From the NCBI GenBank assembly GCA_018433885.1, contig JAHDQK010000050.1:1-47177 (forward strand): a DNA stretch of 47,177 bases, read 5' to 3'. Each line of letters begins with the position of its first letter. Position 1 is the stretch's first letter. This document shows positions 22,447 to 42,000 of this stretch, in pieces. Source of the DNA: Candidatus Cloacimonadota bacterium. GTDB taxonomy: Bacteria; Cloacimonadota; Cloacimonadia; Cloacimonadales; Cloacimonadaceae. A program made the position numbers and the translations under genes. A model generated the notes under the pieces. The model worked only from the letters and a program-made list of their open reading frames with translations. It was not told the origin of the DNA and ran no database searches.

Positions 22447-22523
22447 TGGCACGCCCTAAGGGAGTCGAACCCCTAACCTTCTGATCCGTAGTCAGATGCT
22501 CTATCCAATTGAGCTAAGGGCGC
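22447..22523 (-). tRNA. tRNA-Arg (anticodon ACG)
   Basis: A full cloverleaf of 77 bases including an encoded CCA. The acceptor stem is GCGCCCT with AGGGCGT (G1-U72 is a wobble), the D arm GCTC...GAGC and the anticodon stem TCTGA/TCAGA with loop CTACGGA, giving anticodon ACG. The T arm is AGGGG-TTCGACT-CCCTT, the discriminator G. The A34 is normally edited to inosine by TadA in bacteria. Confidence 0.97.
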
Positions 22524-22636: not shown

Positions 22637-22897
22637 TTACATTCTTTGGATCTCTACAGAGGCAAATCCAGAGCGTTCAGAAATTCTTTTGCGCATCTGT
22701 GTAATCTCGCCGAGAGTTCCCCATGGAAAAAAAAGCCAATAAATACAATTGTTCACCTCCTCGCAATTCATTAGTAAATGGTAATATAGAGATGTTTTGA
22801 TATTTTTGCTTGACAGTTTATTCATAAATGAAAGCATCGTTTCAGATAGATATGAGCTATCTGCAGACGTAAAATATAAATTACTTTTATGATTCAT
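22637..22897 (-). CDS. Hypothetical small protein, doubtful
   Basis: An open frame of 86 codons with an AAGG just before its ATG. Its composition (many Ser, Asn, Lys and a mid-protein hydrophobic YWLFFPWG patch) shows no domain I recognise. It stands alone, divergent from the secreted beta-helix gene and upstream of tRNA-Arg. It could equally be chance in an AT-rich spacer. Confidence 0.25.
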   Translation of the reverse strand: MNHKSNLYFTSADSSYLSETMLSFMNKLSSKNIKTSLYYHLLMNCEEVNNCIYWLFFPWGTLGEITQMRKRISERSGFASVEIQRM

Positions 22898-23314
22898 ACC
22901 TTACCAATATTCAAAGAATGTCAAACAAGGAGAAGGAATATGGTGTGTCTAGCCGAAGTGAAGCAAGCGAGCATTTGCGCGGGATCACCCTGCATTTCGC
23001 AGGATGATACAGCTCATGAAGCGCGATTCATGAACGCGAGATAAATATAACCTGTCGTATCGAATATCCATCTTTACCTATAGTCTCACCTGTTAAGAAA
23101 TAATCGTCGCACATTATAACTATATAGTGAGATTAGGGATTAGATGGAGCTTCGAGCTAACGCCAGTCGATATCAGAAATAGCTATAACCGGACAACCGG
23201 AAGTTCCAGACGAGAGCCCTAACAACGCCTCGAAAGGTCTTTTCTTAGCAGCGATAAGCTATTTACAGACTGGCACAGAACTCAACTAGAGAATCTCAAC
23301 TAAGGAGAACCTTA
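22898..23314 (+). other. Long, structure-rich leader of the beta-helix gene
   Basis: No gene is seen in these 417 bases, but nested inverted repeats are dense. They are a near-perfect hairpin around CCTGC/GCAGG (22984-23008), TCATGA repeated at 23014-23019 and 23028-23033, the stem TAGTCTCAC/GTGAGATTA (23081-23089 with 23127-23135, one G-U pair), and the multibranched element 23162-23274. AAGGAG precedes the ATG at 23315. It probably belongs to the mRNA leader of the downstream gene or contains a separate small RNA. Confidence 0.5.
23162..23274 (+). ncRNA. Candidate structured RNA / riboswitch-like element
   Basis: A closing helix GCCAGTC (23162-23168) pairs with GACTGGC (23268-23274). Inside it AAATAGCT (23177-23184) pairs perfectly with AGCTATTT (23257-23264). 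These enclose a small hairpin CCGG-ACAA-CCGG (23189-23200) and a stem CC-aga-CGAG pairing with CTCG-aaa-GG (23206-23237). This gives a compact multibranched fold of 113 bases ending 40 bases before the start codon. It matches no riboswitch consensus I know (TPP, cobalamin, SAM, glycine, FMN, c-di-GMP-I were considered). Pairing is seen; function is inferred. Confidence 0.4.
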
Positions 23315-26300
23315 ATGAAGAGAACAGCTCTTATTGTAGTCCTCAGCGTCCTTGCGGTTATGTCTGCCGCTTTGATATCGGACTACTATGGCCCCCCTGT
23401 TGCCTCTCAGGGCACATATACACCAATAGACGGATCTGACCCCGCTGGTTACGACGGCAACCAGACCGACGAAGAACTAAGCTGGGCAATTCCACTGGGA
23501 TTTACATTTAATTATTGTGGCGTGAACTACACAGAAGCAAAACTATCTACAAACGGATATCTTGCCATGGGTAGCAACCACTCCTGGTTTTATTCATACG
23601 ATAACATGCTCGCGTCCACAAATCCTCAATATTATCCCTTTATCGCCCCGCTGTGGGACGATCTGCAATGTGACGACATGACCTATCTGACCACAGGCAC
23701 TGCTCCCAATCGCGTTTTTACCGCTCAATGGGCAAACGCCATGTGGGATTATAGTGGATCACCGGTCCAGAACTTCCAACTGAAGCTCTACGAGACATCC
23801 AACAAGATCGAGTTTGTATATGGATCACTCACCAGTCCGAATAATCCAGGTGCCACGATAGGGATCAACACTGCTCCCGGAGGCCCCGGCCACTTCTACA
23901 GCATTACTCCCGGAGCTACAATCTCGTACTCTACCACGGTAGAAAACGACCAGGTAAATTCTATTGCCTATCTGACTTCTGGGACAACCTATACCTTCGA
24001 AGTTGCTGCTCCCAGGACTCCAGATCCCGCAGTAGCGGTATCCCCCGCAAACAACGCCAGTTCTGTTCAGATCAATTCCAACCTGATGTGGACGAGCGGT
24101 GGCGGCATCCCCACCGGTTACAGGCTGTTTTTCGGCACAGACGGCGCGGGAAGCACCAGCCCCACAAGTATCGCAAACAATCTGAATGTTGGATCATCTA
24201 CAAGCTACGACCCCATGAATGATCTTACTCCAAATACTACTTATTACTGGCAGGTTGTTCCCTATAACTCTTTGGGGAGCGCCACAAACTGCCCGATCTG
24301 GTCCTTTACGACCAGTGGACTTCCGCTCAGAGGTGAAAAAACCATCGATCCCGCCGGCAGTGGCCCCGAAAACTACAGCTCTTTTACTGCCGCCATTAAT
24401 GAACTCAACAGCGTGGGAGTCGGTCAGGACGGAGTAGTCTTCTATATTCCTGCCGGAACCACAATCAATGAAAGCACAATGATCCCCGCAATCACTACCT
24501 CAGGTAGTGCGGAAAACCCAATCTCCTTCGTAAAATCCGGAACCGGGGCAAACCCACTGGTAACCGTCCCCGCGACCACGGCATCAAACGATGCTGCTTT
24601 CCGGCTTAATAGTGCAAGCTATATCACCTTCGATGGCATCGACGTAAGCAATGCCTCCGGCTCCAGTGATCTGGAACACGGATATCTGCTTACCGACGGA
24701 GGTGCTTTTGGAGGAAGTTCTTACAACGTGATCAAGAACTGCACAATTACCCTAGACCGGACAAACATAAACAGTACTGGTGTCTATGTAGATGCCGGAT
24801 ACTCTCAGAACAACAACAACTTACTGCAAAACATCACAGTTAACGATGCATACAATGGAATCTGGATCGAAGGTATGTCTTCGTTGTCAGATCAAAATAA
24901 CGTAATCCAGGGTTGCACATTCAACGACATCGCCTCTTCTAATATTCGATGCGACTATCAGAGCGGTATGTCCGTGTTTGACAACGTGGTAAACTACCCC
25001 AGCTCAGGCAATCTGAGCAACCACATTCATGGTTTCAATAGCTACGCACTATCCAATTCCTCCGTTTACAACAACACATTCTCCGGTGGTAACCTCAGTT
25101 CGATGCTATACAACATGTTCTTCAACGTTCCTTCCGAGATTGAAGTTCATCACAACACAATCAGCGGTACCATAACCACCTCTACGTGGTGGATAGGAAT
25201 ATATGTGAACCTTGCTGAGTGGGGCACCGTAAACGTCCATCACAACGAAATCTATGATATCCAGGCAGGAATGATCGCCAGCATGATCTATACCATGCGT
25301 GGATATGAAATGAACATCAACGACAACCATATTCACAATATCACGGCTGGTTCTTTGATCCGAGCCATCCACATCATCGAGAATCTCAGCCTCGAAAGCC
25401 CCGCAAACATCTACAACAACCGGGTTCACAACCTGGAGCTTACAGGCGAAGGCCTGGAGATGATGACAGGAATTGACGTGCAGGATAGATTTGCCAATGT
25501 TTACAACAACATGATCTACGATCTGCGTAGCCCGAACTCCAACTTCGCATCTTGGGATGGATCTCCTCAGATCGCTGCGATCAGCCTCAAAGACATGCAA
25601 CCTGGACAGGCAGAACGGGGTTATGTGTATAACAACACGGTGTATCTTGATGCTGCAGGCACTCAGGACAACGCTTCCTCCACCTGCTTCTATACCACCT
25701 TTATCGGGCCTGTTGACCTGAAGAACAATATCTTCGTGAACAACAGCACACCCGGAGCAAACGGAAGAACAGTAGCTTTCGAGAAATATGGCGCGTCTTT
25801 CGACAACTTCCTCGCCACTATGGATCGGAACATCTATTATGCTGGCACTCCCAGTGCTTCCAACCTGATCTACAAGGACAGCGTAAACAGCGCTCAAACC
25901 TTGGCTGAATACAAGGCACTGAATGTCGGTAAAGATCAAAACTCTTATACCGAAAACACACCCTTCGTAAGCAACGTCGCACCCTATGATCTGCACATTG
26001 ATCCTACCGTTCCCACCTATGTGGAAGGCAATGGTGTTTATCTGCCTACCGTGCTGATCGACGACATCGATGGCGATATTCGTAGCACGACTCCGGATCT
26101 CGGCGCTGATGAAGGCGATTTCATGATCTACACCGGCGCAACCGTAACTGCTCCTGAAAACGTGAATATCAGCGTTTCCGGAGCTAACATCGAGATTAGC
26201 TGGGATGCTGTGGACGGCGCTGCCGGATACTATGTATATGCCTCCGAAGAGCCGTATGCAACCCTGCCTTGGGGTGAACCTCTGATGACCATTGACGCAC

Positions 26301-26368
26301 CTAACACTACCGCCGTCATCAGCCCAAGCTCAAGCTTCAAGTTCTTCTATATCAGTGCGTTTGATTGA
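23315..26368 (+). CDS. Secreted beta-helix protein with fibronectin III domains
   Basis: An exported protein of 1017 residues. A signal peptide (about 1-20) is followed by a roughly 200-residue beta domain with LSTNGYLAMG and FIAPLWDDL, shared with two other giant proteins here. An Fn3-like domain follows at about 235-335. A right-handed parallel beta-helix runs from about 350 to 900, rich in YNN, HHN and VYNN turns typical of polysaccharide-binding or lyase folds. The last 75 residues form a second Fn3-like domain. No polysaccharide lyase active site can be named with confidence. Unlike the other large secreted proteins it has no FlgD-like sorting tail and ends in FFYISAFD. AAGGAG precedes the ATG, and a strong terminator follows. 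Confidence 0.85.
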   Translation: MKRTALIVVLSVLAVMSAALISDYYGPPVASQGTYTPIDGSDPAGYDGNQTDEELSWAIPLGFTFNYCGVNYTEAKLSTNGYLAMGSNHSWFYSYDNMLASTNPQYYPFIAPLWDDLQCDDMTYLTTGTAPNRVFTAQWANAMWDYSGSPVQNFQLKLYETSNKIEFVYGSLTSPNNPGATIGINTAPGGPGHFYSITPGATISYSTTVENDQVNSIAYLTSGTTYTFEVAAPRTPDPAVAVSPANNASSVQINSNLMWTSGGGIPTGYRLFFGTDGAGSTSPTSIANNLNVGSSTSYDPMNDLTPNTTYYWQVVPYNSLGSATNCPIWSFTTSGLPLRGEKTIDPAGSGPENYSSFTAAINELNSVGVGQDGVVFYIPAGTTINESTMIPAITTSGSAENPISFVKSGTGANPLVTVPATTASNDAAFRLNSASYITFDGIDVSNASGSSDLEHGYLLTDGGAFGGSSYNVIKNCTITLDRTNINSTGVYVDAGYSQNNNNLLQNITVNDAYNGIWIEGMSSLSDQNNVIQGCTFNDIASSNIRCDYQSGMSVFDNVVNYPSSGNLSNHIHGFNSYALSNSSVYNNTFSGGNLSSMLYNMFFNVPSEIEVHHNTISGTITTSTWWIGIYVNLAEWGTVNVHHNEIYDIQAGMIASMIYTMRGYEMNINDNHIHNITAGSLIRAIHIIENLSLESPANIYNNRVHNLELTGEGLEMMTGIDVQDRFANVYNNMIYDLRSPNSNFASWDGSPQIAAISLKDMQPGQAERGYVYNNTVYLDAAGTQDNASSTCFYTTFIGPVDLKNNIFVNNSTPGANGRTVAFEKYGASFDNFLATMDRNIYYAGTPSASNLIYKDSVNSAQTLAEYKALNVGKDQNSYTENTPFVSNVAPYDLHIDPTVPTYVEGNGVYLPTVLIDDIDGDIRSTTPDLGADEGDFMIYTGATVTAPENVNISVSGANIEISWDAVDGAAGYYVYASEEPYATLPWGEPLMTIDAPNTTAVISPSSSFKFFYISAFD

Positions 26369-31180: not shown

Positions 31181-34100
31181 TTACTTCATCATCAGCATTT
31201 TGCGTGTGTGAACAAAGCTACCGGTTTCCAAGCGATACAGATATACTCCGGATGCTACTTGGCGATTGTTTGAATCCTTACCATCCCAAACCAGCCGGTG
31301 ATGTCCCGAGTTCAGAAATCCTCTGAACAAGGTGGATACCAGTTGACCTTTCAGGTTGTATATCTTTATACTCGCATTACCATTATCAGCCAGATCAAAG
31401 GAAATGGTGGTGGAGGGATTGAAGGGATTCGGACTATTTGGATATAGCGCATTGATTGTGGGCGAGACCTGATCCTCTGTGCTGGAAGTAGGGGGCAAGA
31501 TCTGCAATTCCAGGGTATCGGAAGGGGCACCCTCTCCCTCTGCGTAGAGCGGATGAACATGGTAGTAATATGTACCTGTGGGGAGAGAATCTTCGCTATA
31601 GCTCAAGCCTGTCAATTCGGCAATTTCCTGAACCAAGCCGGGACCCGTCTTGCGATAAACACGATATGCCAGAACCGGGTATGGAGGTTCTGATGGGGGT
31701 GTCCAATTCAAGGTTACAGAAGATTCCTCTTCATCGTGATCCAAAGAAATATCTGATACTCCCGGCAGATGAATTAGGTGGAAATCCATATAGTGCTCCC
31801 AAGCCGAATCACCGATCTCGAAGGCAGGGGAACTCAGGCTTATGTGATACGGTTGGCCAGCGGTAAGAGTGTATGATCCTTCCGGCAGATAGATAGTGTA
31901 ATCGCCAGTGGTGGTTGGATTGGAGATGAAGGTTCGGTTAGCAAGGGGCACAGATAGCTTGGTTACACTGGGGTCTCCCTCATCGGATAGAGTTATGGAA
32001 CCACTAATGGAGCCTGCTTTGATCGCATATCCCGTAACCGTGACATCGTCGATAAACCACCCATACCCCGTTGTGGAGCCATCGGAAGTGAAATGCCAGC
32101 GCAGGAGAATCTCACTATTGGCAAACATCGAAAGATCAAAGCTAGCATTGGTCCAATCCGGAATATCGGAGGCAAAGCCAGGTTCATTCATGGAATACAC
32201 CGTTCCCGTGTAGGGACTTCCGGAACTGGGATAGATCAGGATCCAATTTGCGCCGTTGTTGATGGATACGGAGACATTCCCGCCATCGAAGTTTTGTTGA
32301 CACTGCATCCGGTGCCAAAAAGAGAGCGAAGCATTGGTTCCGATGAAGATTGGTTCCGAGATCAATTCATAGTTCGCTCCATTGGCGTAGTTCCCGTCCA
32401 GAACCGTAGCCCAGACCTTCTCTCCGGAATTGGCGTTGTATTGAAGTGAAGTTCCCCATTCCCAGCCGCTTTGAGCGCTCAATCCACCAGGATTACTCTC
32501 AAAATCGCTATTCATTCCCATGCTTCCGCAACCCAGAGAGATAAGTTCAGAGACAGGAAACGCATTTGCCGAGCTGAGGTTGAAGGCGATTGGGATGGTT
32601 TGGTTGATCGATGCTTCTGAAGATATTGAGATCTGGTAAACAAATTGAGCTACCTCTCCGGGTGCTAATTCTGCAATGATGTAGGCAGGATTATCGAAAC
32701 TAACCTGCGGGAAGGTGGTGGAAATCTCTCCCACCAAACCAACTGCCGTCACTTGGGATGTATTGGATACATTCACTACGAAACTTATGGTCTCACCCGG
32801 ATCAGCTGCTCCGTTACCGTTACCGGCGGAATCGTGGATATAGAAACCATCATAAACCATACCGGATTTTTTGACTTCAATTTCCAGATTGTGGGACCAG
32901 GTTCTGTAGGAGTTTGTGACGATAAGTTCGAATCGCAAGATATGACCAACAGGAGTTTCCGGCGAAACGACGAAGGTAAAAGCACTATTGTTTACGCCAT
33001 TGCCCTGCCCTTGGATCGGATGATATTCCGAGCTGCCGTTGATGATCGACACAAAAGGATCTCTGATCTCTAGGACGGCAGACACATCGTCCGCTACTTG
33101 GATGCCCAAGTTATCCAGGTGAACACCCATAGCAACGGTTTCACCGGGTTCCACGGTTCCATTGAGATCGTTTATCACGATGTCACTTACGACCAACCAA
33201 GGGTGATCGTAATATTCAGGTCTCTTGGTGATGTATATTGCCCGTTCGTGACCCAAGGGGGATGCCGCTGCCGGATAAGTATTCATGAAAGTGTATTCCA
33301 GACCATCCAGTTGATCCGGGCTTTCGATCCCGATGGTGCAGAAGTTTCCATGATTCTGGAATGTTGCACCTGAATTTACATTGTTAAACACCTTGTATTG
33401 GATCTTGATGGGGCCATCGCCAAAGCTCTTGGGGTAGTGAACGGGATCGTACAAGATCACCTGGAATGTTTCCAGATAGCTGTTATCGTAGCCATTCATC
33501 ATCTTGTACCATTCAATGATGAACAAATGGTTTGCGGCATCATACCAGGTGCAGATCTGACTGTTTGAATCCATGGACAGATCGTCCCAAAAAGCCGCGA
33601 TCAGCGGAGAGGGTCCCATCGGACCCGGGATGCGATAATTGCGAAACTCGTGGTTATCGGTGTGTCCGAAAGAAATTACACCGTTTGAGCTAACTGTGAT
33701 ATCCTGATAATCTACACCGTAGAACCTGAATGTAAAAGGAAGATCCACCCAAGCCAGAGAGTTGGAATTCACATCGTCACCCTCCGTGGGCAATTCCGGA
33801 TCGTCGATGGGAAGCAGAGTTCCATCGCCGCCCTCAGCAGGAGCTATCTCGATCCAATCATAGACCGGGCACTCTTCGTAATCAGTATCGCCATCATCAT
33901 AGATCACATAGCCATGTTTATCTGGCCCCAGAGGATCAGTAACAGTGACGGTTCCTACAGATACGCTGAAGTAAAGCCATTGTAGAAAACCTGAGGGATT
34001 GCTAAGCTTCAGGCGCATGGGAATCAGCATCCCTGGCAACAAGTTATCGCGACCTTGAATTCTAAAGCTGTTTTCCACGCTTGACATCGGAGTGTTGATC

Positions 34101-36655
34101 CCGGCATCACCAAAGCTTCCAAGGTTCTCTAGTACGGAAACCATATCGTTGTCTGAATACAGCTCTCCCACCAAATCTGATACAGCTACTGCTCCCTGAT
34201 TTCGCACGGTGAGGTTCAGATACACCGATTCGCCGGGATCAAGCACATTGTTGCCAGCGTCCGATATTTCATAAGAAACAAAGCTCAGCTCTGCATCGGA
34301 TACAGAGAGGTAATCTCCCACAGTGTATAGATTTCCAGCGCTATCTTCGAGAGTTAGAACAAACCTGAGCAGAGTGTTGTTCGGAGTTTGGGGAGATATC
34401 TGCAAAACAACGGGGCTGTTGCTGGCGGCATTGGATCCCGCGGGGATGCTTCCGAAAGCGAGAGCGGAATCTACGATAGTTACATAGGGACTATCGCAAG
34501 AGATAATGCCGGATACATCCGCGATGCTCTCCAAGGAGGTATTTCTGAGGTTGAAGACTACTTCCAGGGTTTCGCCTGAATTGGGCAGACCATTACCGTT
34601 TCCGGATGACTCTCCTTGAAGATCATCGTCTATGATAGGAGCAGATGCCAAAAGCGAACCATCTCCCACAACCAGATCCTGTTGCAAGGGCTTGAAATCG
34701 TGTTTGGAAACCGTCAGTAGCAGATCCGTGGAGCTGTATTCCGCATCCAGAGGAAGATACACCCGCCCCATATCGTCGGTATAAGCTCTGCCTACAATGT
34801 TTTGTTCGGTGCCCTGGGTATGAGTAACCGTTACAGCGGCATTGGCGACAGGGAAGTTATGCTGGTCAAGAACGATAAAATCCAAGCTATTGACCCCGGC
34901 GGGGACACTTGCCGGCGCACTGATATTGAATGTGTTTGGGATGCTGATAAATATCTCCATGGTGGGATCTCCCATCAGGTTACACCACTGGGTAAATTTA
35001 CTGTGCATTACAGGATTACTGATCCCGTAAAGCTCGAAGAAGTGCAGTTTTGTAAAGAGAAAAGCCTCTCCCATGGTTCTCATATCGTAAAGAAAGATTC
35101 CGGAGTATATCCCCCCACATAGAGCGTTGTTTGGCATTGTAGCCGTTTCGTTGCCCCACATCCCAATCGAGGTTACGGCTCCCTTGGGCGAAGCGGAAGT
35201 ACCAATCCGGATCATCTGTTCGGTAGTGGCAGTCATATGATAATCACCGGTATTGCAAGTGATTATGATAGAGTGAAACAGTTTGTTTATGTTTTGCAAG
35301 CTGGTTTCGGAGGGCGACCAACCGCTCATGCCACCGATACCCCGGAAGTTGAAAAATCCCACACCTTGGTTCATCGCGTTATTCATATCTGGTGGATTCG
35401 GATGATGTTGCGCCAGAATGGTATAGCTGTAATCTGGATTCTCCATCTGGCTGATTTCTTTGATATAGTAGCTTAAATTCCGGGGGGAGATTCCCGAGAC
35501 CGCAGTATCGGCAACCAGTAGCATCCGATTCAGATGCTCGGCGTTTTGCACCTCGATATCCTTTTCGTAAGCATAGATTTTGGATAGAATCACAACCAAT
35601 TGCGTTGTGTTCTCTGCAGATATCCTGCCGATGAAGACATCGCCCAGTTGATCGTTACCTGCCAGCATTTGATAAGGGTAATCTCCAAAGCCGTTTTCAG
35701 TACTCCATGCGGGCACGGAAAAGGTCCCCGTGACATCACCGATAATCACCAGATAGTCAAATCTGGTTTGGGGGTTGTCGTACAAACCCTGAAGATAGCT
35801 CTTGATAGCTGTGTTTGAAGACCCCGTGACAGATGTGCTGAGCAGCGTTACATCCGCTCCCTTTTGCCTTTTCCAGAGGGCGAAGTTATCCACCACCATT
35901 TTGAATACCGGGTCATTGTTTTCACCGTGCAACATGACGATTCTGGGGGGTGTGTTTGCCAAGATGGGACTACGATAATCTTCATAATTCATTACTTGGG
36001 CTTGATAAATTTTGTCAAAAGCGGACGAAATCCGGTGGAACGCGGTCAGTTCATTCACTCCCGGTTCATCCGAGTAGTTTATCCTCAAGGTTATCTCGTC
36101 TTGCACGAGGAGTTCTTTGGAGGTGGGATCCCAGGTGAAGGGCTCGACCTGTAGCGTTATCACGCGTAAATCCCGAATTATCTGAGGTTCACTGAACTGC
36201 AGAGGCTGAGAAGTAGTATATTTATCTCCTCTGTAATATTCTTCATCGATGATAAACTTACGAGGTCCAGATTTATCACTCTGCACGGGAAGAGGTTGGA
36301 TGTTTTGCATAGTGGAGGTGCGGGATCCCAATACTTCTATCTCTACCTTTCCCTGGCGAGGTATTGCGATCATTCTGGACAGAACCGGTAATTCCGGCAT
36401 GCCTTCTTTAACAGGATATGAAGCCTCGTTTATCGTTAGTTGATGATAATCTTCCCCTTGGTGCCTTTGGTTATTGAGCTCATAAGCCGGAAGGGTGAAT
36501 CTGATATCCATGTGCTGATCTGATCTTGAAATCAGGCTAAAAGCAGATCGCTGCGTCGCAGTATTCGCCAAAAGCGAACAAGTAGACATCAACATCACTG
36601 CCAGAACCTTGATAATCATGCTAACTGTGCTAGTTTGGGGCAGGACTTTTTCCAT
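31181..36655 (-). CDS. Giant secreted C25-like peptidase with altered active site and sorting tail
   Basis: About 1824 residues. A signal peptide is followed by a propeptide-like domain and a C25 domain at about 240-590. The Cys motif is present (IITCNTGDY, Cys467), but where active relatives have a catalytic His in an RGHG-like turn this protein has FNFRGIGG (435-442), with Ile440. Several CARDB/Ig-like domains follow. Next are the SSNGVISFG...IAAFWDDL beta module (about 972-1122), a jelly-roll domain (about 1385-1542), a carboxypeptidase-regulatory-like domain, an Fn3 domain (about 1631) and the FlgD-like tail. Start choice: ATG at 36655 with GGAG 12 bases upstream; a GTG at 36673 and an ATG at 36619 are alternatives. 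It may be a pseudo-peptidase or binding protein. Confidence 0.85.
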
Positions 36656-36913
36656 TTGTTCAAATATCTCCACTATTCATAGGATTCGTTGGGCTGTATC
36701 GCGAATTATCGCGGGGGTATGCAAACTTGACTGGAATGGTTCGGGCGATGAAGCCTTCGACATCCCAGTCAGTTTACTCTTTATGTCTTTGCTAGAGGGT
36801 GTATGGGAGTTCATGCTCCTCACTGTTACCAAAGGCAACCTGTTAAGCATCTTGATGCATCAACAGAATGTGGGAAAGGAATCTCAATCACTCGCGTTTC
36901 CTTCGGTTTTCTA
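36656..36913 (-). other. Intergenic leader of the giant C25-like gene
   Basis: No gene. It holds a stem AAAC-t-TGACTGG (36723-36734) with CCAGTCAGTTT (36765-36775), 11 pairs with one bulge, and a 12-base palindrome TTGATGCATCAA near 36850. The stem would fold in the 5' leader about 70 bases before the start codon. Confidence 0.4.
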
Positions 36914-39900
36914 CTATTTTAGCAGGGTCATACGTTTGATTTCGTGGTGCTTTGGGGTCTTCAGAATGTACTGATACACTCCGTTGCCCACGATAGCTCC
37001 GTTGCTGTCTTTTCCATCCCACATAACTGTATGGCGTCCGGCAGATTGGGGTGCATCTACAAGTATGCGGATCAATTGACCCTTTACGTTGAAGATGGAA
37101 AGACTCACTGTGCCAGGATCTTTGATGTCGTAGCTGATAGTAGTGTGAGGATTGAACGGATTGGGATAGTTGCCAATCAATCTGGTAGCTGTAACTTGGA
37201 CATCATCCTCATTTGCCACGGGCTGGATAATGAAATTCAGCACAGTTGTCTGGTTTAGATTGATCTGCACATTATCTTGGGTCTGGCTGAAGTAATCCTC
37301 ATGACTACAGGTAACACTATAAGCTCCGGGAGGCAGATTCAGGAAATAACCACCATCTGCCACGGTAGTTGCTTGATATGTACCCACCACGATCGTTGCG
37401 CCTACTATGGGCTGCATCTCGCTGTTTCTTACTACACCGGATAATGTCCCGGTGGTACTTACCGGGGTGAGAGTGAAATTCAGCTCTGTAGTTTCGCCTA
37501 CTACTATCTCAATCTCGTGCTGAGTAACATTGTAGTAACCCTCTTTGCTACACACAACACTGTATGAGCCATCGGGAAGATGCAGGGTGAAGCTGCCATC
37601 TGCAAGGCTAGTAGCGGAATAGGAACCGGCGGAAACCACTGCTCCTTGGATAGGTTCATCTTGTAAGTTGTGTACATATCCCGTCAATTTCCCCGTAGTA
37701 CGAAGGCCATTGGATAGCGCAGCTTCAGAGATCAGATCTCCGGTATAAACGCTTTTCACAGCCCATTTGAAGGTGCCCTGCGGCAAAGTAGGCCAGGCTG
37801 AATCTGTGAAGCGTAACAATGTGATGGGATTGGGAGTAAGGGATACCCAATCTGTCTCATCGGTTTCCTGACCAAGCTGCAATCTCCATATCTTGTAACC
37901 AGTAAGAGCACGTCCCGCCATTTCAGGATCCGGCGCCAACCAGAGCAGATCCACGCTGGTGTGATTGTTCACTACAATGGCGCTTACATTACGCGGCATA
38001 TAGGTGATTTCTGCTAAGATGATGCCTTGGATTTCTGTATCCGACTCGCCTACCTCTACAATACCAGAACGAGACACATAACCTTCGGCTTCTACCAAAT
38101 ACTCATAGCTCTGTTCGGCAAAAACTCCGCTTATGGAGAATGACCCATCAGCATCCGTGATTGCCTGATAATCTTCATATCCGGAAAGGATGATGGTGGC
38201 GTCTCCCAAACCTTCTTCGCCTGTATCACTCCCGGTGATTCTGCCCGTAACCATTACTGTTTGTCTGGATTCCAGCGAGAAATCCAGAAGAGTAATTCCC
38301 TCTGTTGCCACAGTTACGTATGAAGTATGATCGTAGAAACCATGAGCGCTTACTGTTACGGCGTAGTCGCTTGCCAGAATAAACGGGAACGAATACGCTC
38401 CGTTTTCATTGCTTAGTGTATGAGGTCCATTTTGGATTCTTACCACCGCATTTGCCACCGGCATATTCTCGTTGTCCTTTACGATGCCATCGAGCCTGCC
38501 TGCGGCTCCTGGGGTGATGTAGAATCCCGTTTTGGGATAACTATTCACATATGATCCATTGGGAGGGTTGTTCGGATCTATTTCGGTAGAAGCTCCTGCT
38601 ATTCTGGAACGATTAGCAGAATGATTCTGGCTCCGGAAGCTTTCCCAGGAACCATAGGTCTGGGAACTATAAGGACGTTGAACCATCATTACCAGGTTAT
38701 AGCCCGAAGCAAGAGTGAACGGCTCCTGCAAGCCTATGGAAATCGTGTTGACCCCGGAATTGTAGTTCACATTGCCATCAAACACAAGATTTAACTGGCT
38801 GGCAGGGATCCATCCCGCATCCAAGTTATCCTCAGTGGTCATTCCCAACCAGATCTTGGTAGGAGCATTCAAGACATCTACGGTAAAGGAATTGTAGAAT
38901 TCCACTATTGTGATGAGTCCCGCATGTAGCATTTCGGATTGAGTGTAGATGTTCTGAAACAAACTGCTGTTCTCGCTCATATCCATCGGCATGTAGCTGG
39001 ACACTTGGTCGCCTAAGCCTACTGTTACTAAAGTGGTAGCTGAAGCTTGAACCGAAACATTCAGGTTCGCGGTCTGGTCGTTCGCGGGGTTCTCATCAGA
39101 AGCGAGGATGACCTTGGCGTACAAGATTGTATTTTCTATCTGCGTGGGCTCCCAGGGGATTGTTACCACGGCGGAAGTATTTCCGGATAATGGAGGTCCT
39201 TGCATGGTGGCAAGCTCGATGCCGCCTTGTTTATAGAGTGAAACCTGATAATTCTGTTGAGGATTCAAGCCCCGGTTAAATACCCCGATCGAGTAGTTAC
39301 TGATGCTACCTATGTTTGGGATGACATTCCCGGAGATGCTCACCGCGGCAAGATCATTTTGCAACAAAGCCTCGATTCTTACATTATCCAGGTAGATACT
39401 CCGGTTGTTGCCACCTTGCGCGTGTTTGAAGGCGATAAATGTACCGTTGCCGGAATATGTGCGCAAATCCACAGAGTATTCCGCCCAGTCCGAAGTAAGC
39501 GTAATGCTTTGAACATCCTGGAAAGTATTTGCCTCCTGAGGATCAGACATCACTCCCGTGGTCAGCGAAAACGCAGACGCGCCCTTTGCCATGAATCTCA
39601 CTATCAGGGTGTTCATCGGAAATTGAGAGCTGATCGGTGGGGCGATGAGGAAGGGACCAAGCGCACTATTAGAATTGTTCATCATCACGCTATTGGGAGC
39701 GGTGAACGACATGGTGGACACAGTAGTAACCGTACCCGTTCCGGTTGTGAGTTTACGCCATCCCAAGGGCAGGTTTGGCGATGTAACCGAATCAAAATTT
39801 TGGGTATGTGGCAAGCTTAAAATAGTAGGATCCACACAAGTCCCGTGCAAAGATACGGTATGGGTGATCCGGGTAAGATCATCGGTGATGTTCACAGAGC

Positions 39901-41701
39901 CACTATGAGCGCTAGCCTGCGAGGGCAAATACTGAACACTGAAGGTAGTGCTCTGTCCACTTCCCAGAGCTATGGGGAGTGCGGGCGGATTTTGGACACT
40001 GAAAAAGGGGCTGCCGCTGATTTCGATGCTGCTTATGTTTAGCACCCCACCGCCGGAGTTATAAACCGTGAAGCTCTGGCTAGCACTGTTGTTGATGATT
40101 ACCTGACCGAAATTGTGAGATTGGGGATCTATACTGAAGGCTGGTTCATTTGCCCCGGTTTGCATATAGAACGTGGTCTTGGGGAACTGCCCGCTGGCAC
40201 TGCCAATGGTGCCCATGTTGTTGGGATCATATGTGGTTACATCCGAGAATGCCATTCTGGAGCGGTTTGTGCCAATTGTCTGACACTGGAACCGATTGTT
40301 GACGCTGTAAAAAGAGGTAGACATAGGGCGATTTACCAACATCACAAGGTTACCGCCGTTGTAGGTAAATGGAGTGGCGGTATTGAAGGTGATGTTTACA
40401 CTGTTTTGCCCCGAGAGGTAGTTCACACTCCCATCAAACACCTGTACCAATTGATAGGCAGGTATCCAGCCTGAAGCAAGGCTGCTCTGGGTGGTCGTCC
40501 CAAGCCATATCTTGGTCTGAACATTAGGGCAGGTTTCAGTAAAATCACTATAGAAGGTCAAGCCAGTTAGGGTACCATTTATTGGGATCTCACTGGCTGG
40601 GAAGATAGTTTCAAACATACTGTTTCTATAAGATACATCAATGGGTCTTCTGGCAAGCTGCGAGCCATCACCGATAGTTATCGCCGCCATCCCCTCCGGT
40701 TGTACCATCAGGCTCATGGCTTCGGTTTCGTTGTTCGCAGTGTTTTCATCCCCGGCAAAACTCACCTTGCCCCTGATGCTTGTGGCTCCGGCTGTTCCAG
40801 GAACCCAAGGGATGGTAACCAAAGCTGTTGCCAGCGGACTCAAGGCAGGACCTACCACGGTGGCGAGTTCCGTGGTTCCAGACATCAGGCTCACAGAATA
40901 GGATGTCTGAGCATTGATACCAGCGTTGAATACAGAAACCACATAGTCATAGCTCACTCCCACCGTAGGAGTCTGATTTCCGCTGAGCGAAACGGCTGCT
41001 AGATCGTTGTTGTGTTGATTGGGAGCACTGAAAGTGTATTTTGTGTTCGCGCCAGGCCAGCTATTCACGTTTGCGTTTTCCACCGTGAATGAAGCGCTGG
41101 CGGGATTTCCCGGAGTTACGCTGCAAAAGTTGTTGTAGCCCCCTGGCAACATATTGATTCCGATCGAAGCGCTAGCTCCCACAGGCATGCCCACTCCAGG
41201 ACCATATATGAATTCGATGGTTCTATCTTCGTAGAGCTTCACCTGATAGTTAAAACTCGTAACAGAGTTCGCCGGCCACTTTATTCCGGCAAATTGCACG
41301 GTAAACACACGGTTCGGGGCTGTGCCTCCCAAATGATACTGAGCAGAGCCTTGAAGATAGGTATCATCCCAAAGAGGTGCGATCACCGGGCAGGTGGCAG
41401 AACCAAGAGCATTTACTGCCATGGATCCGGGGGCAGTTCCTAGAGTGATGTAGCCATTGGAGCTGATCTTTATCTGCGAATACGAATTTGCTCCATATAC
41501 AAATGGAAAACCGATGTCAATGGGATTTGATATGACATTATCGCCTATTGCCGTTGGCACCGGAGTTCCGGACACAGCCACATAAGGCTCTGTACCGCCT
41601 GTAAAGGCATAAAAATTGCTAATTTGAGCGGTTAAAGACGCTATGACTGCCAAAAACACGATCAGCATCACGGTCACCTTTTGCATCATAAATCTGGTCA
41701 T
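36914..41701 (-). CDS. Giant secreted multidomain adhesin-like protein with sorting tail
   Basis: An exported protein of 1595 residues with no catalytic domain that I recognise. After the signal peptide it has the beta module shared with the beta-helix protein (ISSNGYITLG, VIAPLWDD). Two copies of a roughly 290-residue unit follow, each a CARDB-like domain (NDLAAVSxSGN, near 232 and 780) plus a beta-sandwich with TKIWLG and GWIPA. Between them lie a choice-of-anchor/ASH domain (about 520-610) and a MAM-like domain (about 637-777). Carboxypeptidase-regulatory-like repeats lie at about 1067, 1150, 1337 and 1417, an Fn3 domain at about 1234, and the FlgD-like tail at 1507-1595. The ATG at 41701 is preceded by AAGGAGG. 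Probably a surface binding or adhesion protein. Confidence 0.85.
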   Translation of the reverse strand: MTRFMMQKVTVMLIVFLAVIASLTAQISNFYAFTGGTEPYVAVSGTPVPTAIGDNVISNPIDIGFPFVYGANSYSQIKISSNGYITLGTAPGSMAVNALGSATCPVIAPLWDDTYLQGSAQYHLGGTAPNRVFTVQFAGIKWPANSVTSFNYQVKLYEDRTIEFIYGPGVGMPVGASASIGINMLPGGYNNFCSVTPGNPASASFTVENANVNSWPGANTKYTFSAPNQHNNDLAAVSLSGNQTPTVGVSYDYVVSVFNAGINAQTSYSVSLMSGTTELATVVGPALSPLATALVTIPWVPGTAGATSIRGKVSFAGDENTANNETEAMSLMVQPEGMAAITIGDGSQLARRPIDVSYRNSMFETIFPASEIPINGTLTGLTFYSDFTETCPNVQTKIWLGTTTQSSLASGWIPAYQLVQVFDGSVNYLSGQNSVNITFNTATPFTYNGGNLVMLVNRPMSTSFYSVNNRFQCQTIGTNRSRMAFSDVTTYDPNNMGTIGSASGQFPKTTFYMQTGANEPAFSIDPQSHNFGQVIINNSASQSFTVYNSGGGVLNISSIEISGSPFFSVQNPPALPIALGSGQSTTFSVQYLPSQASAHSGSVNITDDLTRITHTVSLHGTCVDPTILSLPHTQNFDSVTSPNLPLGWRKLTTGTGTVTTVSTMSFTAPNSVMMNNSNSALGPFLIAPPISSQFPMNTLIVRFMAKGASAFSLTTGVMSDPQEANTFQDVQSITLTSDWAEYSVDLRTYSGNGTFIAFKHAQGGNNRSIYLDNVRIEALLQNDLAAVSISGNVIPNIGSISNYSIGVFNRGLNPQQNYQVSLYKQGGIELATMQGPPLSGNTSAVVTIPWEPTQIENTILYAKVILASDENPANDQTANLNVSVQASATTLVTVGLGDQVSSYMPMDMSENSSLFQNIYTQSEMLHAGLITIVEFYNSFTVDVLNAPTKIWLGMTTEDNLDAGWIPASQLNLVFDGNVNYNSGVNTISIGLQEPFTLASGYNLVMMVQRPYSSQTYGSWESFRSQNHSANRSRIAGASTEIDPNNPPNGSYVNSYPKTGFYITPGAAGRLDGIVKDNENMPVANAVVRIQNGPHTLSNENGAYSFPFILASDYAVTVSAHGFYDHTSYVTVATEGITLLDFSLESRQTVMVTGRITGSDTGEEGLGDATIILSGYEDYQAITDADGSFSISGVFAEQSYEYLVEAEGYVSRSGIVEVGESDTEIQGIILAEITYMPRNVSAIVVNNHTSVDLLWLAPDPEMAGRALTGYKIWRLQLGQETDETDWVSLTPNPITLLRFTDSAWPTLPQGTFKWAVKSVYTGDLISEAALSNGLRTTGKLTGYVHNLQDEPIQGAVVSAGSYSATSLADGSFTLHLPDGSYSVVCSKEGYYNVTQHEIEIVVGETTELNFTLTPVSTTGTLSGVVRNSEMQPIVGATIVVGTYQATTVADGGYFLNLPPGAYSVTCSHEDYFSQTQDNVQINLNQTTVLNFIIQPVANEDDVQVTATRLIGNYPNPFNPHTTISYDIKDPGTVSLSIFNVKGQLIRILVDAPQSAGRHTVMWDGKDSNGAIVGNGVYQYILKTPKHHEIKRMTLLK

Positions 41702-42000
41702 ACCGACCTCCTTGGGAAAGTAAATCTCTGAATGAAAATATTTTAACTGCGTTGTTCTCCGCTTACTCATCGGTATCCACATATTTTGGTATAATAATAC
41801 AATTTTCCGACATGATTTATGGAGCACGCTGGCAGCCAAAATTCTCTACTATCAGATAATTATTTTACAAAGAATCTGTCAATGATTTTTTTTATTTCTA
41901 CTTCTCGCCCACCGCCAACATGCCTATCACATCCCTCCAACAGATTCCGACACATAGATATAGCCAGCATTGGCTTTCTCGTTATATTGTGAGTTTGAGT
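41702..42000 (-). promoter_or_regulatory. Upstream region of the giant-protein cluster
   Basis: No gene. On the minus strand a perfect TTGACA (41877-41882) is followed after 17 bases by TTATCT (41854-41859), a weak -10, giving a leader of about 150 bases. AT-rich alternatives (TATTATTATACC near 41790) could also serve as -10. The promoter call is tentative. Confidence 0.3.

Follow-up and report, generated by a model that had tools for sequence, protein, structure and literature searches.

A conserved hairpin leader with a stop-free upstream frame precedes secreted-protein genes in the Cloacimonadaceae

The window analyzed here is a stretch of 47,177 nt from a Candidatus Cloacimonadota bacterium of the family Cloacimonadaceae, and the features of one of its intergenic spacers are collected in Table 1. 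A tRNA-Arg (ACG) gene at 22447-22523 on the minus strand stands at the edge of this 0.8-kb spacer and points away from the leader. Further along the window lie two minus-strand genes, 36914-41839 and 31181-36673, whose very large secreted products carry type IX secretion sorting tails (TIGR04183). The gene that follows the spacer had been predicted to encode a secreted beta-helix glycan-binding protein. Its signal peptide bears out secretion; the one other match is a weak one to fn3, so that glycan binding is putative, and the beta-helix label reflects a sequence pattern, because the single-sequence structure model of the protein reached a mean pLDDT of 34, too poor to give the fold. No PDB sequence match was found for the 1017-aa protein.

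Table 1. Features of the leader and its downstream gene in the window
Feature	Position	Strand	Basis
TTGACA, candidate -35 of the leader promoter	22810-22815	+	sequence; hexamer enrichment in the family
AAGGAG, Shine-Dalgarno of the upstream ORF	22927-22932	+	sequence; Shine-Dalgarno ATGs at such a distance are a family feature
Upstream ORF, 34 codons (MVCLAEVKQASICAGSPCISQDDTAHEARFMNAR), ending before Domain I	22940-23044	+	sequence; family-wide open frame
Domain I, long hairpin, lower stem covarying across the family	23068-23147	+	z = -3.70; R1 match; covariation
Tip AUAAU-CGUCGCAC-AUUAU, 5-bp stem and 8-nt loop	23100-23117	+	near-invariant in the family
Domain II, the multibranched element originally predicted	23162-23274	+	fold z; spacer resampling; orthologue architecture
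Domain II outer helix GCCAGTC/GACTGGC	23162-23168/23268-23274	+	sequence
Domain II inner helix AAATAGCT/AGCTATTT	23177-23184/23257-23264	+	sequence
Domain II stem-loop CCGG-acaa-CCGG	23189-23200	+	minimum-energy fold
AAGGAG, Shine-Dalgarno of the secreted-protein gene	23302-23307	+	sequence
Secreted-protein gene, 1017 aa, signal peptide, weak fn3 match, beta-helix-like repeats	23315-26368	+	sequence; 75% orthologue

The original prediction concerned Domain II, described as a multibranched RNA 40 bases before the gene. The nested helices of 7 and 8 pairs lie exactly where they had been placed, the two additional short stems (the CCGG stem-loop and the weak stem CC-aga-CGAG/CUCG-aaa-GG, with the aga/aaa internal loop) both belong to the minimum-energy fold, and the distance to the ATG is indeed 40 nt. 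The 113-nt element folds at -29.8 kcal/mol compared with -20.98 ± 3.09 for shuffled sequences (z = -2.85), an energy matched by 1 of 200 shuffles. A nested pair of perfect 7- and 8-pair helices appeared in 7 of 300 first-order Markov resamplings of the whole 791-nt spacer (tRNA to gene), and the pair recovered by scanning the real spacer is the predicted one. The fold is thus unlikely to be chance, as had been claimed, although these values alone are not overwhelming.

A full-length orthologue of the window gene, 75% identical, occurs in one other genome of the genus, and the two leaders are 61% identical over 270 bases. At L040:4035-4140 the orthologous leader shows the nested architecture of the window's Domain II (z = -2.67), with helices of 8 and 10 pairs (CTAATCA/TGATTAG and GTTCTAATGC/GCATTAGAAC) that share nothing with the window helix sequences. 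This comparison, made on two sequences, supports the predicted structure better than energy alone does. Across the family, the Domain II regions have a median z of -1.96, and 47% fall below -2 relative to shuffles. Most relatives carry a simple GGC..GCC hairpin at this place, whereas the window's Domain II is larger, and the multibranched form is seen only in the window and orthologous leaders. Between Domain I and the start codon of three other leaders, repeats of the TTCCTGCGAAGGCAGGAATCC type or the GGGATTAGGGATTAG type are inserted in the Domain II loop, which therefore seems tolerant of insertions.

Alignment of the window and orthologous leaders led upstream to the string AATAATCGTCGCACATTA, which also matches leaders of unrelated genes. 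Within the genus it gave 28 matches at up to two mismatches, versus 2 for the reversed control, and ATAATCRTCGCACATTAT gave 66 matches at up to one mismatch in a set of 125 genomes of the phylum, versus 0 for its reversed control. The 18-nt tip, with the consensus AUAAU-CRUCGCAC-AUUAU, is present within the family in 64 copies, distributed over 24 of 50 genomes and 8 of 10 genera. Outside the family there are two isolated matches (L093 and L094; genomes G104 and G116), both lacking the leader context; L093 was rejected as a leader copy, lying inside a coding sequence. Viral matches (L145-L148) were also set aside, since on inspection by eye they appear to fall in the coding regions of unrelated phage genes, on the opposite strand. 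No further tip was found in the 47,177-nt window. Five genomes of the same genus (G002-G005 and G010) and most of genus g7 are without the tip, and several of these genomes have related secreted proteins.

The hairpin that bears the tip, Domain I, lies directly upstream of Domain II, is better conserved, and folds with a z of -3.70 in the window; neither this hairpin nor the upstream ORF had been part of the original prediction. Covariance model R1 matched the window's genome at 23075-23139 (47.5 bits, E = 2.3e-8). The tip stem and its 8-nt loop hardly vary, while the lower stems change freely and show covariation. Across 53 sequences, the number of double-change cells was 137, versus 61.2 ± 7.4 after shuffling, and none of 500 shuffles reached 137; 80.1% of cells were paired, versus 30 to 45% in slid controls, and double changes affected 9 of 14 pairs. 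The covariation in homologous leaders that had been proposed as a check is found, and it resides in the stems of Domain I. The internal loop of the hairpin has a U-rich 5' strand and CAC on the 3' strand, with partly conserved bases at C -13, U -8, A -1, A +19, and C +20. Unlike most RNA helices, those of Domain I do not tolerate G.U more than A.C (40 versus 60 helix-interior mismatches; 26 versus 43 on A4), so selection gives no favor to RNA-type wobble on this strand. We found no partner for the tip loop elsewhere in the leader, where complementary 5- and 6-mers are not enriched.

Essentially all tip copies lie on the same strand as, and 143 to 430 nt (median, 196) before, signal-peptide ORFs that begin MKK or MKR, a constancy of strand and position relative to coding sequence that fits a structured cis-regulatory RNA. 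The downstream proteins are mutually unrelated and include choice-of-anchor J and D, fn3, cleaved adhesin, C10 and C39 peptidase, and FGE-sulfatase types. Two leaders of one genome, L045 and L052, share 97% identity between -463 and +163 relative to the tip and then run into unrelated secreted-protein genes; the pair is best read as a recent reuse of one leader with different cargo. Similarly, L044 and L058 are 94% identical up to +96 and are followed by unrelated genes, and similarity matrices show the leader to be coherent from -280 to about +140, beyond which it parts from its cargo. The original prediction is hence partly redrawn. A conserved structured leader does stand before the secreted-protein gene, backed by the orthologue and about 64 family members, and the reported element is folded and real; however, it is merely the 3' domain of this larger leader. 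The conserved, sensor-like part is Domain I, upstream of it, and the leader structure is not specific to this gene, since its Domain I stands before many unrelated secreted proteins.

Other arrangements were also seen around the tip. Secreted-protein genes of 5 to 7 kb often form tandem arrays, with one leader copy each and 0.6 to 1.3 kb between genes, as at four loci (L149 in G016:C15, L150 in G040:C41, L151 in G012:C1, and L155 in G024:C237). To the right of the tip, L072 and L075 share 93% identity over 1.1 kb; this similarity does not extend to the left, although each of the two left arms can still pair with the common right arm. In L046, near a contig end, the secreted-protein ORF expected about 200 nt past the tip is interrupted three codons into its sequence, counted from the ATG (ATGACTCTGTAG), possibly by insertion of a mobile element.

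Taken along its length, the leader comprises a candidate promoter, the Shine-Dalgarno sequence and ATG of the upstream ORF, Domain I, a TCAAAA linker, a variable Domain II, a second Shine-Dalgarno sequence, and the secreted-protein start. In 62 leaders, the hexamers TTGAC[N]/TTG[N]CA occurred 61 times at -400 to -250 of the tip, versus 24 times on the reverse strand; for the candidate promoter of the window, no good -10 element was found. Given promoter-like hexamers 250 to 400 nt before the tip, a single transcript would carry the upstream ORF, Domain I, the linker, and Domain II. The stretches that precede Domain I are unstructured, with median z values of -0.4 and -0.55, and the A-rich linker was detected in 38 of 61 leaders, at +69 to +74 in most of those. 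A hairpin at the main Shine-Dalgarno sequence (GAAAAAC..GUUUUC) recurred by eye, and it was dropped when the mean helix proved to be 5.22 versus 4.93 in shuffles. The spacer of the window contains no intrinsic terminator, and 61 leaders yielded a single candidate, which makes a translational, stability, or Rho-type readout likelier than classical attenuation.

In 54 of 64 leaders, the interval from -150 to +90 relative to the tip contains no stop codon in one of the frames, whereas 8.0 such leaders would be expected and the maximum of 200 resamplings was 22. In bins that had not been used to choose the frame, stops numbered 8 of 1,440 at -180 to -90 and 1 of 480 at +60 to +90, compared with a rate of about 5% in the remaining frames and beyond the stretch, whose edges are sharp at about -180 and +90. 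Upstream ATGs with a Shine-Dalgarno sequence fall 36 times in the open frame and 7 times out of it. The resulting ORFs span 35 to 150 codons and in most relatives run through Domain I; in some leaders their stop overlaps the main start as AUGA. Ten leaders lack a frame open from -150 to +90, including those of the window and its orthologue, and most of the other eight start late, 20 to 31 nt before the tip. The window's own leader is a variant in which the upstream ORF stops before Domain I, and in the orthologue, an ORF of 55 codons has its stop just 5' of the tip.

The peptide itself bears no mark of constraint. Substitutions in the upstream ORFs are spread evenly over the three codon positions (379/376/364), as opposed to 73/63/168 in the downstream genes; indels do not come in multiples of three; and codon usage is not gene-like, with the actual frame scoring best in just 22 of 50. 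Some leaders read the tip in frame A (IIVAHY), others in frame B (NNRRTL), and besides the residues that the tip encodes, no peptide is shared among the ORFs. From the flat codon positions, the indels, the codon usage, and the two frames, we conclude that what is conserved is the tip at the nucleic acid level and the openness of the ORF; selection keeps a frame open through Domain I and does not act on the peptide. That the upstream ORF encodes a real small protein, with the hairpin incidental to it, is accordingly very improbable, for the in-frame Shine-Dalgarno starts and the open frame of 54 of 64 leaders come with none of the codon-position, indel, codon-usage, or shared-peptide signals of purifying selection on a protein, and with two frames through one tip.

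We propose that this mRNA leader acts in cis to control a secretome regulon, its tip being read by a trans-acting factor in competition with ribosomes that pass over the hairpin, and we put the probability of this reading at roughly 0.55; the anatomy of the leader is much more certain than its mechanism. Within one bacterial family, genes for large secreted proteins would form a regulon with a common leader of about 500 nt, Domain II being the element that was originally reported. Ribosomes would translate the upstream ORF and sweep Domain I regardless of the encoded peptide, which fits the observation that the open frame ends just past the point where a ribosome would have cleared Domain I. 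Between passages the hairpin would refold, and its tip could be recognized by a putative trans-acting factor, most likely an RNA-binding protein and possibly a ligand or sRNA. The balance of tip occupancy and ribosome passage would then decide whether the downstream start is reached, through mRNA stability, Rho-dependent termination, or initiation, and Domain II may tune access to this second start. In the window and its orthologue, where the upstream ORF stops before the tip, Domain I would fold freely and the leader would be more tip controlled. A more specific form of the proposal, that translation of the leader is sequence blind, the upstream ORF being kept open through the recognition hairpin purely for ribosome passage, as a mechanical part and not a peptide gene, while the tip-reading factor coordinates the secretome with that traffic, we offer only as a tentative idea. 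Several observations do not favor the regulatory leader: G.U is not commoner than A.C in Domain I, the tip loop has no partner found in the leader, the stop-free frame could mark another function of translation, the window's upstream ORF falls short of Domain I, and the multibranched Domain II occurs in two leaders only.

Alternatively, the leader might be a ligand-binding riboswitch, with Domain I (internal loop and invariant tip) as the aptamer and Domain II as an expression platform near the ribosome-binding site. A conserved tip and partly conserved internal-loop bases on a covarying stem, placed in a 5' leader 143 to 430 nt from the start, would suit such a device, and the lack of an intrinsic terminator is compatible with a translational switch. 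However, the conserved core is a single small hairpin of about 20 nt, the targets are many unrelated secreted proteins (choice-of-anchor, fn3, C10 peptidase, and FGE-sulfatase) and not one metabolic pathway, Rfam similarity is nil, and a long upstream ORF through an aptamer would be unusual, so we regard a riboswitch as unlikely.

The tip could also act at the DNA level, its 5-bp inverted arms and asymmetric 8-bp center on an imperfect palindrome serving as a recombinase or DNA-binding site by which leaders are shuffled among cargo genes. This would account for the reuse of leaders before unrelated cargo (L045/L052 and L044/L058), the tandem arrays of cargo genes, the G.U and A.C counts, which bear no sign of RNA-strand selection, and the homology of L072 and L075 that starts exactly at the tip. 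Yet the two sides of the tip are the best correlated of all neighboring stretches (r = 0.61), which speaks against the tip as a recombination crossover despite the L072/L075 break, and the main similarity break lies at about +140 and not at the tip. The constant strand and distance to the start codon, together with a bounded stop-free frame that has its own Shine-Dalgarno sequence and crosses the tip, make a DNA-level role a rather poor prospect.

Slightly less probable still is that the multibranched element is a chance fold and Domain I alone is functional. Its z is only -2.85, the inner details are unlike between the two orthologous leaders, and most family members have a simpler hairpin here, but both orthologous leaders place nested helices of unshared sequence at the same spot (7 and 8 pairs; 8 and 10 pairs), comparable pairs arise in only about 2 to 4% of resampled spacers, and Domain II regions fold better than shuffles family wide.

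As the original prediction had anticipated, the element matches no known riboswitch class. Among the 4,227 families of Rfam 15, compared at gathering and permissive thresholds, only a tRNA matched the window at the gathering cutoff; nothing matched its leader region up to an E value of 5, nothing matched in eight relatives, and two leaders (L066 and L115) had no credible match up to an E value of 2. In open-license papers we found nothing on Cloacimonadota together with riboswitches, or on the tip sequence. Leader-peptide attenuators such as trp and mgtL combine a short leader ORF with a switch in which ribosome movement acts over alternative RNA structures. The present leader differs from these, as we found neither conserved codons or a stalling peptide nor an intrinsic terminator, the ORF is much longer, and its frame is not conserved. 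A further related case is the pair of B12 riboswitches of Mycobacterium tuberculosis metE and ppe2, in which translated upstream ORFs change downstream expression and termination-reinitiation or Rho has been proposed (PMC11260477). That pair provides a precedent for a structured leader gated by translation of an upstream ORF, and it resembles our case in having a structured 5' leader crossed or adjoined by an upstream ORF, with AUGA overlaps in some leaders here. However, it concerns two genes and a known cobalamin aptamer (PMC11260477), whereas here a new hairpin with an invariant tip precedes dozens of secreted-protein genes and the long ORF is without peptide selection. Our motif shares with the candidates of a 104-motif comparative-genomics set (PMC2864571) its covariation and its cis-regulatory position ahead of genes from a single lineage; it differs in being tied to a stop-free upstream ORF and in having no Rfam match. 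The conserved tip on a variable covarying stem in a 5' leader also recalls ribosomal-protein leaders (PMC7247131), as expected of a protein site, but the targets here are secreted proteins and not the own operon of the putative binder. The leader thus looks undescribed, its new points being a structured leader and a peptide-blind open frame that passes through a recognition hairpin.

This would be an undescribed regulatory leader in a family known here mostly from fragmented draft genomes, and it would provide a common handle on the control of the large secreted proteins of these organisms. The invariant 18-nt tip could serve directly as bait for its putative reading factor, and the patchy presence of the tip may help to find this factor by phylogenetic profile. 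Finally, the open but meaningless frame would offer a clean natural case for the role of leader translation when the peptide is irrelevant.
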